In this document: piece after piece, positions 4,080 to 57,400 of the stretch
Numbering within the stretch: position 1 is the stretch's first letter
Layout of the letters: each line of letters opens with the position of its first letter
DNA from: Enorma burkinafasonensis
Lineage (GTDB): Bacteria; Actinomycetota; Coriobacteriia; Coriobacteriales; Coriobacteriaceae
DNA length: 64,000 nt
NCBI RefSeq assembly: GCF_902150035.1
Contig: NZ_LR597505.1
Span: forward strand, 1-64,000
Reading direction: 5' to 3'
Notes under the pieces: generated by a model
The model's input: the letters and a program-made list of their open reading frames with translations, nothing else
What the model was told of the DNA's origin: nothing
Databases searched by the model: none
Made by a program: the position numbers and the translations under genes

Positions 4080-4916
4080 CTATTCGCCGGTCGAGGCGAC
4101 CGACTGCCCTTCGGCACCCTGGTAGAAGAAGAGCGCATCGAGCATCCTGATGTACCACGGCGCGTCCTCGACCACCGCCTGCTCGGCAGCCTCGACATCG
4201 GCCGAGGTCATCGGCTCGTCCTCGCCATCCTCGGCAGGCTGCTCCGCGGGGGCGGCGTCCTCTGCGGCATCGGCGTCCTGCGCCGCCTGGCCCTCCGCAT
4301 CCGCGTCCGTGTCCGCGGCGTCATCGCCCGCGGCGGCATCCTCCGCCGGGGCGTCCGACGTGTCCGCAGAGCCCTCGGCTGCGTTCGGCGCCGCATCGTC
4401 CTCGAGCCCCACGACATCGATGACGCGCTCGCCCGGCATGACGAGCCCCAGGTCCTCGCGCGCCGCGCGCTCGATGCCCTCGGTCGAGAGCAGGCCGTCG
4501 ACATGGGACTCGAGCCGCTCGTTGTACTCGTTGCGGATCTCGAGCTGCTGGTCGAGCACCATGCCCGTACGGTAGGCGGCATAGAGGTCGCGCACCGGGA
4601 AGTAGATGCTCACCAGCACGACCGCCGCGACCGCGGCATAGAAGATGGGCTTCGTGGAGCCGGTGGTGAGCGAGTAGATGAACTGGACGACGCGGTTGTC
4701 CGCCGCGTACCTCATGAACGAGGAGCGCTTGGCGGAAGATTTGGCCGCGGTGCCTCGCTTCGCGCCCGACGCGCCGCGCCCGGCGGCACCCGCCCGGCGC
4801 GCGCCGCCCGCGCCCAGCCTCGACGCGGCGGCGGAAAGGTCGCCCGTCGCGGCGGCGGAGCCGGCGCGCTCGCCCGCGCGCCCGCGAGAGGTCCGGTTGT
4901 CTCGATAGGTTCCCAT
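4080..4916 (-). CDS. DivIC/FtsB-like septum protein with long tails
   Basis: The 278-residue protein has a basic, Ala/Gly/Arg-rich cytoplasmic N-terminus (about 1-90), one membrane helix (about 90-107), then a coiled-coil-like stretch with GMVLDQQLEIRNEYNERL and a DLGLVMPGE motif. That order is the FtsB/DivIC signature; these proteins bridge FtsL and FtsQ at the division septum. A very acidic low-complexity segment (about 180-250, Asp/Glu/Ala) follows, which is much longer than usual. Start at 4916 fits an aagg ribosome binding site and ends the antisense-looking upstream frame. It lies downstream of eno, as divIC often does in actinobacteria. Confidence 0.85.
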   Translation of the reverse strand: MGTYRDNRTSRGRAGERAGSAAATGDLSAAASRLGAGGARRAGAAGRGASGAKRGTAAKSSAKRSSFMRYAADNRVVQFIYSLTTGSTKPIFYAAVAAVVLVSIYFPVRDLYAAYRTGMVLDQQLEIRNEYNERLESHVDGLLSTEGIERAAREDLGLVMPGERVIDVVGLEDDAAPNAAEGSADTSDAPAEDAAAGDDAADTDADAEGQAAQDADAAEDAAPAEQPAEDGEDEPMTSADVEAAEQAVVEDAPWYIRMLDALFFYQGAEGQSVASTGE

Positions 4917-5050: not shown

Positions 5051-6577
<1,527 letters not shown>

Positions 6578-21104: not shown

Positions 21105-21256
21105 ATGGGGTGCACGCTCGAATGCGTTGAGTGCAGGCTCGAATGCGTTAGGTGCATCCTCAAACACGTTAGGTGCATACCCACTGGGAAACGCCGAATA
21201 GAACTCGTCTATTTCGCAGGGATTTTGCACCTAACACGAAATGCACCGCACCTAAC
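21105..21256. repeat. Phased GTTAGGTGCA array A (left flank)
   Basis: Direct cores stand at 21105 (degenerate atggggtgca), 21126 (gttgagtgca), 21147 and 21168 (gttaggtgca), each exactly 21 bp on. After a 48-bp spacer come inverted cores tgcacctaac at 21226 and cgcacctaac at 21247, again 21 bp apart. The 21-bp units also share sequence between cores (GCTCGAATGC). The spacer holds AACGCCGAAT and TCTATTTC, which reappear in inverted order in array B. The inner 110 bp (21147-21256) have the same geometry as array B. The steps equal two helix turns, so bound proteins would share one face. Confidence 0.85.
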
Positions 21257-21581: not shown

Positions 21582-22571
21582 ATGCCGGCGAGAAGACTGT
21601 CAACCGAATCATACCTCGACGAATGCGAGCGGGCGGGGCGCCTCGCGACGCCACGCACGAGACGCGAGAACGAGCTGCTCAGGCGCCATCTGGCAACCGG
21701 GCGTCTCAGCATGCCCTTCGAGGGGTTCTTCTTGCGCACATCCGCGCTTGAGCAACTCGACCCGACGACGATCTACCTACATCTCATCAGGGCGGTGGCG
21801 CATCTCCATCCCCACTGGACGTTCTGCTCCTTCACGGCGGCGGTGCTCTATGGCCTCCAGGTGCCGCGCCCGCTCCTGAAACGTCTCCATATCGCCGTCC
21901 CGCCCAACGGAAACCGACGCCGATTGCCCGGGATTGCCGTCTGCCATCCCGTGCCGGACAACAGCCATACGTGGCAGCTGGGCATCAACGTCTGCCCCAT
22001 ACTCCCCACTCTTCTATCCTGCATGTGCCAGGCCGACTTCCGGTACGGTCTCGCCATCGTCGACTCGGCGCTTCGATGGCAGCTCGTCGACCGCGAGGAG
22101 CTCCGCGCGTATCTCCGCGAACACGGGAGGGGCCGGCACGGGATCGCGAGAGCCCGCAGAACCGTGGCCTATGCCGATGGACGGAGCGAGAACGGAGGGG
22201 AATCGATTGCGCGCGGCATCATGATCGATCTGGGCTTCGCCCTCCCCGAGCTCCAGGCGGAGATCGAGGACCCCCTCTGTCCTGGAGCCATGAAGCGCGT
22301 CGACTACCTCTGGCGGAGGGACGATGGGAAGGTCATCATCGCCGAGCTGGATGGTATGGGGAAATATCAACCTCAGAATTCCAGAGGTGGCGGGGGCCTC
22401 GACCATGCGGTCAGCGTACTCGCCGCGGAGCGGCGGCGCGAGTCGCGTATCAACCTGACCGGCGCCACCGTCGTCAGGTTCTCCCTCGCCGAAGCGCTGG
22501 ATGAAGGCTACTTCTTCCGGCTTCTCTCGGAAGCCGGGGTGCCCCTGGACGCGATGGGCGCACGAAGCTGA
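21582..22571 (+). CDS. AbiEi/DUF559-like protein with PD-(D/E)XK-type C-terminus, flanked by repeat arrays
   Basis: A 329-residue protein with no membrane segment. The N-terminal two-thirds look like the AbiEi-type proteins of actinobacteria (HWTFCSFTAAVLYGLQVPRP, HIAVPPN, AIVDSALR). The C-terminal part has E207, D241 in RVDYLW, then E255 and D257 in IIAELDGMGKY with K261: the pattern of Vsr/DUF559-like PD-(D/E)XK nucleases. Start at 21582 is preceded by AAAGGAGG; frame sequence before it runs through the repeat array and is not protein-like. It stands alone on the plus strand between lacI and larC and is bracketed by arrays A and B. No partner toxin is seen. Nuclease activity and any link to the repeats are inference. 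Confidence 0.75.
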   Translation: MPARRLSTESYLDECERAGRLATPRTRRENELLRRHLATGRLSMPFEGFFLRTSALEQLDPTTIYLHLIRAVAHLHPHWTFCSFTAAVLYGLQVPRPLLKRLHIAVPPNGNRRRLPGIAVCHPVPDNSHTWQLGINVCPILPTLLSCMCQADFRYGLAIVDSALRWQLVDREELRAYLREHGRGRHGIARARRTVAYADGRSENGGESIARGIMIDLGFALPELQAEIEDPLCPGAMKRVDYLWRRDDGKVIIAELDGMGKYQPQNSRGGGGLDHAVSVLAAERRRESRINLTGATVVRFSLAEALDEGYFFRLLSEAGVPLDAMGARS

Positions 22572-22647: not shown

Positions 22648-22757
22648 GTTGCGTGCACAAAAAAGAGCGTTAGGTGCAGAGCGGCAGGGAAATAGAATTC
22701 GGCGTTCCGCCATCCCCCTGCGGTTCTGCACCTAACGATAAAACGGATGCACCTAAC
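22648..22757. repeat. Phased GTTAGGTGCA array B (right flank)
   Basis: Direct cores gttgcgtgca (22648) and gttaggtgca (22669) are 21 bp apart. A 48-bp spacer follows, then inverted cores tgcacctaac at 22727 and 22748, 21 bp apart. Total 110 bp, the same as the inner part of array A. Read on the opposite strand, the spacer contains GGAACGCCGAAT and TCTATTTC as in A, so the two arrays are related and stand in inverted orientation around the gene. The spacer can also fold (CGGCAGGG with CCCTGCGG). Confidence 0.85.
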
Positions 22758-22795: not shown

Positions 22796-24190
22796 CTACC
22801 GTCCCAGCGCCGCCGCGGCGGCGTCCTGCACGGCGCGCAGACTGATGCCCTCGCGCTCGGCGAGCGCGGCGCAATCGTCGAACTCCGGCTTCTCGTGACG
22901 GGTCCCGTCGGGGAGGGTGACCGCCTTGGTCCGGACGGTGCCCCACGGCGTCTCGGCCGTCCCCGTCTCGCGCCGGAGCACGCTGCGCTCGCACGGCCAG
23001 CGGCGGATGCCGATGGTAGCGGTCTCCGCGAAGATGATGGCCTCCAGGCGGTCGACGTCCTCGGCCGTGCAGATGACCTGGAGCTGCCAAGCGGGACGCC
23101 CCTTCTTGGTGAAGACGGGGACCCAATGCACCTCGCGCGCACCGGCGGCGCGCAGGGCGTCGGCGGCATAGCCGAGCTGCTCGCCCGTCGCGTCGTCGAT
23201 GTCGCACTCCAGGCGCACGATGCGGTCCTGGGGGACCGGGGTGGCGTCCTCGATCACGAGCGCGCGCAGGACAGACGGCGTCTCGTAGGCGCGCTTGCCC
23301 GCGCCGAGCCCGACGGCCTTCACCGTGAAGCGCGCCGGCAGCTCGCGCTCGGCGTCGAGCGCGGCGACGATGGCGGCGCCGGTGGGCGTGACGAGCTCGC
23401 CCTCGGTGTCACCGATCGTGAGCGGCAGCCCCTGCTGCTCGACGATGTTGAGCGTGGCAGGCACCGGCACCGGGATGATGCCGTGCTGGCAGCGAATGGT
23501 CCCGTGCCCGTCGACGAGGCGCGGCACGATCACGCGGTCGATATCGAGGTCGTCGATGAGCACCGCCACCGAGACGATGTCGACGATCGAGTCGACGGCG
23601 CCGACCTCGTGGAAATGCACCTCGTCGAGGGGGACGCCGTGGGCCTTGGCCTCGGCCGCGGCGATGATGGCGACCATGCGGTGCGCGAGATCGCGGGCAC
23701 GCGGGGCGAGCTGCCCCGCATCGATGATGCGGTCGATGTCCGCCGGGCCGCGGTGCTCGTGATGGTGGTGGCCATGGGTATGCCCATGATCGTGGTCGTG
23801 CTCGTGGACATGATCGTGGTCGTGCACGTGGTCGTGGCCGTGCCCATGCTCGTGGGCGTGCTCGTGGTCGTGGCGATGCCCGCCATCGTAGGCGTGCCCA
23901 TGGCCGTGCACGTGCCCCTCATGGCAGCTTCCCGCCCCGGCGTCCATCCCGTGCAGGTAGGCCATGTCGTGGTCGTGGTTCTCGTGCGCGGGGTCGAGCA
24001 CCACGTCGAAGTCGCAGCAATCGAGGCCGGCTTTCGCGACGCGCGACACCCGCACCTCGTACCCGTCGACCGGAAGCGACGCCAGCGCATCGCGCAGGCG
24101 CGCCTCGTTGCCCCCGAGGTCGAGCAGGGCGGCAACGGTCATGTCACCGCTGATGCCGCAGGTGCAGTCCAGATAGAGCGTCTTGCTCAT
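22796..24190 (-). CDS. larC: Nickel-pincer cofactor nickel insertase LarC
   Basis: LarC inserts nickel into the pyridinium dithiocarboxylate cofactor used by LarA-type racemases. The 464-residue product begins with DCTCGISGDMTVAALLDLG and has EVHFHEVGAVDSIVDI and the C-terminal domain with ECDIDDATGEQLGYA. Residues about 69-147 are a histidine-rich insert (runs such as HGHGHDHVHDHDH), a probable nickel store. In Lactobacillus the gene is split into larC1/larC2 and needs a frameshift; here it is a single frame. A terminator separates it from the PTS IIB gene upstream, so it may have its own promoter. larB (36137) and a LarA-like gene (25943) are nearby. Confidence 0.93.
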   Translation of the reverse strand: MSKTLYLDCTCGISGDMTVAALLDLGGNEARLRDALASLPVDGYEVRVSRVAKAGLDCCDFDVVLDPAHENHDHDMAYLHGMDAGAGSCHEGHVHGHGHAYDGGHRHDHEHAHEHGHGHDHVHDHDHVHEHDHDHGHTHGHHHHEHRGPADIDRIIDAGQLAPRARDLAHRMVAIIAAAEAKAHGVPLDEVHFHEVGAVDSIVDIVSVAVLIDDLDIDRVIVPRLVDGHGTIRCQHGIIPVPVPATLNIVEQQGLPLTIGDTEGELVTPTGAAIVAALDAERELPARFTVKAVGLGAGKRAYETPSVLRALVIEDATPVPQDRIVRLECDIDDATGEQLGYAADALRAAGAREVHWVPVFTKKGRPAWQLQVICTAEDVDRLEAIIFAETATIGIRRWPCERSVLRRETGTAETPWGTVRTKAVTLPDGTRHEKPEFDDCAALAEREGISLRAVQDAAAAALGR

Positions 24191-55162: not shown

Positions 55163-56530
55163 CTAGGAGCGCGCCTGAAGATAGCGAACCCCGTACGGGG
55201 GGAGCTCGAGCGCACCCGTGAGCTCCACCGGCGCGCCCCCGTCGAAAAGATCGGCAAAGACGCCCACAAGCTCGGCCGCCTCGATACGCGCCGGCTCCCG
55301 CGAGGCGTTCACCGCGATGAGCACCCGCACGCCGTCCAGAGCGCGCTCGAAGAGCAGCTGCTCGCTCGCGATGACCACGTTGCGGTAGCCGCCATACGCA
55401 AGCGCGGCGGCCGCCGGCGCAAGGGCGCCCGTCTGGGGATCGCGCGCGGTGCGCGCCGCGATGAGGCGCTCGATGAAGGCGGTGAGGTCGGTGCGTTCCG
55501 GCATGTCGAGCGCCGGCCTGAGCGACCAGTCACTGCCCGCGCCCTTGACGCCTTCCATGCCCCACTCGCTGCCGTAATACAGGCAAGGGATCCCCGGCAT
55601 GCCGAAGAGCGCGCCGTATGCGCAGGGTATGTGCCCGGGGTCCGCGAGGATGCTCGCGAGGCGGGTCACGTCGTGGTTGTCGGCGAACGAGAGCAGGTGC
55701 AGCCCCCGGTAGATGCACCAGGGGTCGCTCCCGAACTGCCGATGCAGCGAATGGGCGATCTCGAACATGTTATGGGAGTTGAAGCTCGAGTACAGGCCCT
55801 TATAGCACTCGTAGTTCGTGCACGAGTGCAGCATGCCGTCGCGCACGAGCTGGCTGTAGTCGCCGTGGAGCGTCTCGCCGATGAGCGCGAACTCCCGGCC
55901 GGGGCCGCCTTGGGCGCCGAACTCGTCGGCAAGGCCGCGCAGGCGCCCCATGAAGCCTCGGTCGAGCGAATAGGCCACGTCGAGCCTGAGGCCGTCGATA
56001 TCGAAGGCCTCACGCCAGAAGCGCACACAATCCAGCAGGTAACCGGCCACCTCGGGGTTGGCGAGGTTGAGCTTCACGAGCTCGAAGTGCCCCTCCCAGC
56101 CCTCGTACCAGAACCCGTCGCCATACGGGGAGTCGCCATCGAAGTTCGTGATGAACCACTCGCGGTAGCGCGCGTCCCACCCGTGGGCCTTAAGGTCCTG
56201 GAACGCCCAGAAGCCGCGGCCCACATGGTTGAAGACCGCATCGAGGACCACGCGGATCCCCCGGTCATGCAGGGCGCGCACCACATACGCCAGATCCTCG
56301 TTCGTGCCGAGGCGGCAATCGACGCGCCGCAGGTCGCAGGTGTCGTAACCGTGCGTCCCCGACTCGAAGACGGGGTTGAGCAGCACCGCGCCGATCCCCA
56401 GCTCATGCAGATAGTCCGCCCAGTCGGCGATATGGCGCACGCGCGGCACGCAAACGCCGTCGTTTACCTGCGGTGCCCCGCACATACCGAGCGGGAAGAT
56501 CTGGTAGAAAACGCTCTCATATGCCCACAT
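55163..56530 (-). CDS. GH13 alpha-amylase-family glycosidase
   Basis: A 455-residue cytoplasmic enzyme (no signal peptide) that acts on alpha-glucans. The GH13 motifs are present: DAVFNHVG (region I), GLRLDVAY with the nucleophile Asp (II), LIGETLHGD with the acid/base Glu (III) and FADNHDV (IV). MWAYESVFYQIFPLGMCG at the start resembles neopullulanase/maltodextrinase-like enzymes acting on short oligosaccharides. Start at 56530 follows GAGGGGG. It stands between the recJ-recQ promoter and the repeat array D. Confidence 0.92.
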   Translation of the reverse strand: MWAYESVFYQIFPLGMCGAPQVNDGVCVPRVRHIADWADYLHELGIGAVLLNPVFESGTHGYDTCDLRRVDCRLGTNEDLAYVVRALHDRGIRVVLDAVFNHVGRGFWAFQDLKAHGWDARYREWFITNFDGDSPYGDGFWYEGWEGHFELVKLNLANPEVAGYLLDCVRFWREAFDIDGLRLDVAYSLDRGFMGRLRGLADEFGAQGGPGREFALIGETLHGDYSQLVRDGMLHSCTNYECYKGLYSSFNSHNMFEIAHSLHRQFGSDPWCIYRGLHLLSFADNHDVTRLASILADPGHIPCAYGALFGMPGIPCLYYGSEWGMEGVKGAGSDWSLRPALDMPERTDLTAFIERLIAARTARDPQTGALAPAAAALAYGGYRNVVIASEQLLFERALDGVRVLIAVNASREPARIEAAELVGVFADLFDGGAPVELTGALELPPYGVRYLQARS

Positions 56531-56794
56531 GGCGCCCCCTCGCGACCGCATCCAAGACGCTCCGCCTCCCCCGCCGGGCTCCGCACCCGCGGCTCCCCGG
56601 ATCGGACGGTTCGTGCGCCCTATTTTGACGCTTCATCAACAAGGTCTCAAGCGCCCGCATCGACCGCGCCCCGACGGCACAATCGGAGCCGTGATCCATG
56701 TATGCCGTTCCCCCTACGGACGCTCAAGAGACCGCAACGGTCCTGCGCCCCCAAATCCACCGTCGTATCATGCGGATTATGCCTACCGCATTAC
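56531..56794. other. Non-coding GC-rich stretch upstream of the amylase gene
   Basis: No convincing gene here. The open frames on the plus strand are antisense continuations rich in Pro and Arg. The region should hold the amylase promoter. It passes from GC-rich to strongly AT-rich at about 56790, where array D starts. Confidence 0.4.
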
Positions 56795-57079
56795 TATCGT
56801 AAGATTTCTTCATTCTCAAAAAAAGATTCGCACTGTTTCTGCATTCTGAATTTCACTATCGTAATGTTTATGCATTCATGAAATTCTATCGTACGATTAA
56901 TGCATTCTGAGATTGACTATCGTACATTTTCTGCATTTCTACCAATCCTATCGTAAGATAAATTCAGAAGTTTATTAGATTTTACATATTAATTACGATG
57001 ATACTGATGGAATGCAGAATTCGTACGATACCAGTGGTTCATCTGCATGATTCGTACGACGATGCGCGTTCTTACGACA
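56795..57079. repeat. AT-rich phased array D (31-bp period)
   Basis: TATCGTA (or a near match) begins at 56795, 56826 (attcgca), 56857, 56887, 56918 and 56949: steps of 30-31 bp, three helix turns. Each is followed 5-8 bp later by TGCATTC or a close variant. Then the reverse complement appears: TACGATG at 56994, TACGATA at 57024, TACGACG at 57055 and TACGACA at 57073, with TGCAG before two of them. So a six-fold direct block faces a three- or four-fold inverted block. GC content is far below the surroundings. No gene overlaps it. Same architecture as arrays A-C, different motif. Confidence 0.8.
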
Positions 57080-57195
57080 CCAACCCCGGGATGCATCATC
57101 CACCTGGCCGCCAGCACCTCTCCCCATGCCATCGATAGACCGCCCCAGAAGGTAAACCGACATATCGCACCGCTTCGCCCGGGCGCGAGACGAAC

Positions 57196-57223
57196 AAGGG
57201 CCGCGAGCGAACTCGCGGCCCTT
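57196..57223 (-). terminator. Terminator after rubredoxin
   Basis: A 12-bp perfect stem (AAGGGCCGCGAG/CTCGCGGCCCTT) with CGAA loop, followed on the minus strand by GTTCGTC. It lies 37 bp after the rubredoxin stop. Confidence 0.8.
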
Positions 57224-57259: not shown

Positions 57260-57400
57260 CTACTCCTCGACCAGCTCGAACTGATCGGGACCGACGCCGC
57301 AGACGGGGCACACGAAGTCCTCGGGCAGCTCGGGCGTATCGACCTCGACCTCGTAGCCGCAGACGACGCACACGAACTTGTAGGTCTTCTCGTCAGCCAT
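57260..57400 (-). CDS. Rubredoxin
   Basis: A 46-residue protein. [11 protein letters not shown] and [14 protein letters not shown] contain the two CxxCG knuckles that bind one iron. A start at 57400 follows AAAGGA. Rubredoxins carry electrons, often to oxygen- or peroxide-reducing enzymes in anaerobes. It lies 144 bp after the flavin reductase gene on the same strand. In Hrb-type proteins these two domains are fused, which suggests a partnership. It is slightly shorter than the usual 52-54 residues. Confidence 0.93.

Follow-up and report, generated by a model that had tools for sequence, protein, structure and literature searches.

A head-to-head 31-bp array in an actinobacterial genome, probably an orphan site of an AbiEi-like protein with a putative nuclease part

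Known systems closest to the array and its gene

The closest known arrangement to the one described here is RAYT/REPIN, in which a gene lies between copies of its own short repeat, inverted doublets are dispersed among the genes, the motif is gene-specific and several independent families occur per genome (PMC2817692, PMC3116915). A similar layout is seen in the genome analysed here, in which a gene on contig C38 (the C38 gene) is likewise flanked; as a gene with its own dispersed repeats, the system is of a known kind. However, the partner here is an AbiEi-like protein with a putative PD-(D/E)XK nuclease part, not an HUH tyrosine transposase, and the sites are phased units, apparently double-stranded and often in multi-unit arrays, whose arms do not covary. 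Neither of the two chemically defining features of RAYT/REPIN, the HUH transposase and the hairpin repeats, was found: the C38-type protein is unrelated, with no match to an HUH/Y1 (IS200/IS605-like) tyrosine transposase in searches against Pfam and NCBIfam, and the repeats did not pass the hairpin test. The 2010 RAYT paper reported no RAYT homologs outside proteobacteria (sources for RAYT/REPIN: PMC2817692, PMC3116915), and the present system is found in Actinobacteria.

The N-terminal part of the protein is similar in sequence to AbiEi antitoxins, such as S. agalactiae AbiEi and M. tuberculosis Rv2827c, which bind 23-bp inverted repeats in their own promoters (PMC7319586). The sites are of similar length (21 bp here) and facing pairs lie upstream of the gene, as is the case for the C38 gene, while the members of a pair are 13 bp apart for Rv2827c and 10 bp apart here (PMC7319586). 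Unlike in these antitoxins, the AbiEi-like part here belongs to a fusion with a putative nuclease; no AbiEii toxin was seen beside it, and the sites are also found downstream of the gene and scattered over the genome in long 31-bp arrays.

Two further kinds of system share some features with the present one. DUF559 (PF04480) and REase_MTES_1575 (PF18741) match the C-terminal part of one distant homolog (L195; the former above and the latter below cut-off), and the pattern of E, D, E-x-D and K extends across the set, whereas for the Coriobacteriia members neither Pfam nor NCBIfam has a model that reaches threshold. To our knowledge, no dispersed cognate arrays are known for DUF559 or REase_MTES_1575 proteins. 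MITEs and Tn7-type ends also have arrayed binding sites and non-autonomous copies, but here no target-site duplication is found, the gene encodes no DDE transposase, and both ends bear complete facing arrays.

The window array and the copies of its motif

The window is the whole stretch of 64,000 nucleotides that was analysed (bases 1-64000 of contig C25), taken from a draft genome of 2.23 Mb in 48 contigs. By our reading, its kinship and a match to Collinsella aerofaciens place it in Coriobacteriales. A gene-free gap of the window contains an array of 21-bp units, about three of which are inverted and face six direct ones (Table 1). The genes on either side, both on the minus strand and named by reading the sequence, are alpha-amylase-like (55163-56551) and rubredoxin-like (57260-57400). 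The unit steps are 30-31 bp and the register is kept through the centre. The original prediction had described the six direct units and their steps correctly; of its three or four inverted units about three stand, one of them weak and one perfect, while the fourth (about 57060-57080) is degenerate and off the 31-bp register. Inverted units 2 and 3 are joined by the spacer GAACCACTGG, which is common to other arrays.

Table 1. Features of the window, with coordinates in the window
Feature	Positions	Strand	Sequence or description
Array A	21105..21256 (about)	.	GTTAGGTGCA, 21-bp period, head to head, upstream of 21582 gene
21582 gene	21582..22571	+	329 aa; AbiEi-like N-terminal part, PD-(D/E)XK-like C-terminal part
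Array B	22669..22757	.	GTTAGGTGCA, 21-bp steps, downstream of 21582 gene
Head-to-head array, orphan	56795..57082	.	Motif TATCGTA-N7-TGCA, 31-bp period
Direct unit 1	56795..56815	+	TATCGTAAGATTTCTTCATTC
Direct unit 2, degenerate	56826..56846	+	ATTCGCACTGTTTCTGCATTC
Direct unit 3	56857..56877	+	TATCGTAATGTTTATGCATTC
Direct unit 4	56887..56907	+	TATCGTACGATTAATGCATTC
Direct unit 5	56918..56938	+	TATCGTACATTTTCTGCATTT
Direct unit 6, left half of centre	56949..56969	+	TATCGTAAGATAAATTCAGAA
Central spacer, 10 bp, between two facing units	56970..56979	.	GTTTATTAGA
Inverted unit 1, weak, right half of centre	56980..57000	-	CATCGTAATTAATATGTAAAA
Inverted unit 2, perfect	57010..57030	-	TATCGTACGAATTCTGCATTC
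Inverted unit 3	57041..57061	-	CGTCGTACGAATCATGCAGAT

The window array is a genuine array and not a product of chance. Its self-match at lag 31 is 0.405, a value reached by none of 1,000 dinucleotide shuffles, and TRF reports a period of 31 at the array. The window contains six matches of the motif pattern, whereas 1.3 are expected and none of 100 shuffles reaches six. As first described, the array is AT-rich (34% GC vs 68% for the whole window). It folds somewhat better than shuffles (z -3.7), as is expected of any facing array, and no pairing is seen by eye in the spacers. Besides, several other readings were rejected. For a centromere or an iteron origin, no replication or partition gene was seen near the array and the motif occupies eight chromosomal sites; no support was found for the centromere, replication or silencing role proposed at the outset. 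CRISPR does not fit units that vary and arrays that face each other, and for a transcription terminator, the rubredoxin gene already has its own hairpin at 57196-57223.

When the genome was searched with TATCGTA-N7-TGCATTC, further arrays were found. The 31-bp pattern with at most two mismatches gave 20 matches in this genome (reversed control, 0) and no match in the 66 other genomes of the family, so the search for the motif, suggested together with the array, succeeded within the genome and not among its relatives. A facing-centre pattern matched in exactly eight places of the whole genome (reversed control, 0), which are located on C13, C16, C31, C25 (56951, the window array, 81124 and 134237) and C38 (two sites). 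All eight sites fall in gaps between genes, and six of them have no accompanying gene. The seven arrays read comprise 44 units; among 37 steps, 31 are of 31 bp, 5 of 30 bp and 1 of 32 bp. TCGTA and TGCA are nearly invariant across the 44 units and the remaining positions are free. The smallest site is a single facing pair around TTATATATAA. Five of the seven arrays read lie between convergent gene ends according to crude gene calls, and the copies other than the window array adjoin unrelated genes, mostly at their ends. In wider searches, the pattern scan of GTDB gave only a chance match inside a coding-type stretch of Rubritalea, no DNA similar to the array was found in phages and plasmids, IMG/VR contained one pattern match (L063), and Rfam gave sub-threshold chance matches only. 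With a spacing of 8 N, which does not fit the units, the motif had only chance-like matches.

The gene, its paralogs and its homologs in other actinobacteria

Arrays A and B bracket the 21582 gene. They show the same head-to-head design with another motif, as had been recognised from the letters, and further copies of GTTAGGTGCA lie at C29:3205, C19:73790, C16:67812 and C27:52689. A low-complexity tandem repeat rich in histidine and aspartate (23790-23917) is located nearby, within the gene at 22796-24190. The 21582 gene has two paralogs on C22, one on C29 (broken) and one on C38, and all five genes, including the broken one, have their own inverted repeats alongside; the motifs of the other paralogs are likewise scattered as orphan copies within this genome. 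The C38 paralog is a 1.1-kb gene between ppc and rplM, bracketed by two TATCGTA sites: downstream lies an array of six units (4702-4877), and upstream a facing pair that is degenerate (6045-6092). A gene related to the 21582 gene thus accompanies the motif elsewhere in this genome, a point that had been raised as a check in other strains. Because two of the eight TATCGTA sites bracket the C38 paralog, the window array is most simply an orphan of this family, and it is probably an orphan site of the C38-encoded protein. The design common to the window array and arrays A and B apparently reflects membership in a single class, in which every array is cognate to one of the paralogs of the 21582 gene.

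In the broken paralog (L066, C29:67500-74500) the frame is split and contains an internal TGA; both flanking repeats persist and its motif occurs as about eight scattered orphans, the arrays outlasting the gene.

The N-terminal part of the protein is matched by PADLOC AbiEi models (E 2.2e-8 for the C38 protein and 4.4e-7 for the 21582 protein), and PF13338 is above cut-off in two distant homologs (L185 and L193). In the C-terminal part, E207, D241 and E255 are invariant in all 57 Coriobacteriia members and all 16 distant homologs, K261 is present in 57 of 57 and 14 of 16, respectively, and D257 is nearly invariant too; the acidic/lysine constellation of a PD-(D/E)XK active site is therefore present. 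Together with the DUF559 and REase_MTES_1575 matches in one distant homolog, these conserved residues suggest a putative PD-(D/E)XK-type nuclease. A profile search of the Protein Data Bank gave no match, and an AlphaFold model from single sequence was unusable (pLDDT 36.7). By reading, the neighbours are housekeeping genes (at the C38-type locus, ppc and rplM), and no adjacent DUF1814 nucleotidyltransferase toxin gene was seen among them; the loci read showed neither a partner gene nor a defence-island context. Phages and IMG/VR gave no relatives of the protein, and among plasmids there was one, on a 0.9-Mb Collinsella replicon.

Homologs are found in 62 of 67 genomes of the family. The upstream flanks of the homologs were compared with the downstream ones. 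Similarity of at least 35 bits was found at 30 of 60 Coriobacteriia loci, which include a few duplicates of one gene (e.g. L072 and L097), and at 13 of 16 distant actinobacterial homologs, vs 1 of 44 control genes. Several flank pairs are 90-99% alike across 60-145 bp, while the flank comparison gave no clear repeats at the ppc locus of G001 and G003, at L079 and at L081. The flank repeats of four relatives recur many times within the respective genomes (e.g. ~14 copies of one G001 family and ~20 of one G004 family) and have no copy in this genome (G000). For several families, the orphans within the home genome number about 5-30. Among eight distant genomes, many orphans were found in six, and two (G245 and G445) have flanking copies only. 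The C38 gene is syntenic with homologs in four relatives, and the gene at the ppc-rplM locus is common to five species, being 41-57% identical to the C38 gene with a different motif. The arrangement of a gene and scattered arrays is thus general in many actinobacteria, each with a different motif. Lack of conservation in relatives had been named as the mark of chance decay; the motif is indeed not conserved in them, but the design is.

Spread of the arrays and its possible explanations

The gap between the amylase and rubredoxin genes is 718 bp here vs 107 bp in G004, 121 bp in G002 and 199 bp in G003, while in G001 it is 639 bp and contains a repeat of another motif; the gap at C25:81122 is 323 bp here vs 50-110 bp in all four relatives, and in both gaps the extra DNA here exceeds the array itself, so that the comparison does not fix exact insertion edges. 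The suggestion that the array is a relic of an element that lost its gene is right in that the array stands without a gene. But because six of the eight sites are geneless and the matching gap is short and array-free in three of the four relatives, the window array is probably a dispersed copy rather than a full element that decayed.

The 10-bp spacers such as the one between inverted units 2 and 3 recur among arrays (32 pairs at at least 8/10 vs 0.1 expected), a recurrence that binding by itself need not require. The G001 orphans L161 and L164, located 5 kb apart, have in common a 72-bp block with sharp edges and unrelated flanks, which includes an unconstrained 16-bp centre that is variable elsewhere. 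The shared spacers and this sharply bounded 72-bp copy suggest that arrays spread by being copied. A target-site duplication was looked for at 20 orphans from two families, and none was seen. Arm covariation in the L100 family was reached by 133 of 500 shuffles, with no compensatory change beyond shuffles, and because the arms do not covary, the sites look like double-stranded protein sites rather than hairpins.

We consider it rather probable that the window array is an orphan docking site for the C38 AbiEi-nuclease, and that the gene and its arrays form an intragenomic family working like RAYT/REPIN, in which we infer the binding of the array, the driving of copying by the nuclease and any service to the host. 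The C38 protein would probably bind each 21-bp unit on one helix face, 31 bp (three turns) apart, and the bound units would form two runs facing each other. The gene would keep its fixed locus and be inherited vertically, while short facing-pair units would occasionally be copied into intergenic gaps that tolerate them, a step in which the nuclease domain most likely assists; copied facing pairs may then grow by adding 31-bp units. By analogy with AbiEi, the protein is also likely to repress its own gene via the upstream pair.

It is unlikely that the arrays are instead architectural or regulatory sites serving the host, with a domesticated AbiEi-nuclease acting at gene ends as organiser or insulator of specific sites and units at fixed positions changing in step with the protein. 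The convergent gene ends and the keeping of the gene at one locus across species would agree with such a role, as would the arrays of different motifs that sister species have in the same gaps: the ABC-F gap with the C16 array here holds a repeat of its own L107 family in G004 and another repeat in G001, and the metE-DUF711 gap holds an array in G000 and a repeat of the L103 family in G003. However, insertion-tolerant gaps (hot spots) and sites that persist while motifs turn over could both explain the latter, and the empty gaps at two clean loci, the copied unit with sharp edges, the shared spacers and the invariance of putative nuclease residues, which an architectural protein does not need, argue against it. 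Still less probable is a DNA antidote, in which the free nuclease is toxic and the bound arrays (upstream, downstream and orphan) keep it inactive, making a one-protein toxin-antitoxin-like or defence unit. AbiEi derives from type IV toxin-antitoxin systems (PMC7319586), and the PADLOC matches, the stand-alone gene with its conserved putative nuclease and the many sites per genome are in line with this, but no partner genes or defence islands were seen around the loci read, phages, IMG/VR contigs and plasmids gave nothing except the one Collinsella replicon, and G245 and G445 show flanking copies only.

An ordinary operator, by which some regulator controls the neighbouring amylase gene, is very improbable: the array does lie upstream of this gene, ~240 bp from its start, yet the other copies are beside unrelated genes and relatives retain the amylase and rubredoxin genes without the array. 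As for chance AT-rich decay or a simple tandem repeat, the region is AT-rich, but the shuffles and the eight head-to-head centres genome-wide, against none for the control pattern, refute it.

Beyond the docking site itself, it is an evenly balanced question whether such systems make up an unrecognised class of intragenomic repeat populations in Actinobacteria, independent of RAYT/REPIN, with a vertically inherited AbiEi-nuclease founder bracketed by phased facing arrays, nuclease-dependent spread of double-stranded units and a motif that changes with the protein between species. No description of such a gene-plus-arrays system was found in the open-access literature; subscription journals and preprints were outside this scope and priority is uncertain. 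If the class is real, the large group of poorly annotated "AbiEi/DUF559" genes of Actinobacteria would gain a concrete target, and the flanks of each gene would reveal its DNA motif, making binding, cutting and spreading directly testable. It would also mean a second solution to the RAYT/REPIN lifestyle with unrelated chemistry, supply naturally paired DNA-binding domains and motifs from which recognition rules could be learned, and explain many unexplained intergenic palindromes in these genomes.

Other repeats were met in the relatives as well. Three G001 loci (L138, L143 and L147) carry several-copy repeat families without an identified partner gene. In G004, a perfect 34-bp inverted repeat with a 38-bp centre (CATGTAAAATAACCCCAGCGACTTTTTTACATTG) lies near +549 from the gene end at L108 and is unlike the gene's own motif, and in G002 long GC-rich nested inverted repeats of >70 bp are located beside a DUF711 gene (L153 34-260). 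Besides, a second repeat (GTGGGACTC..GAGACCTGGTG) adjoins several L107-family orphans of G004 (L172, L174, L176, L177 and L179), and some G004 gaps thus collect repeats from different families.
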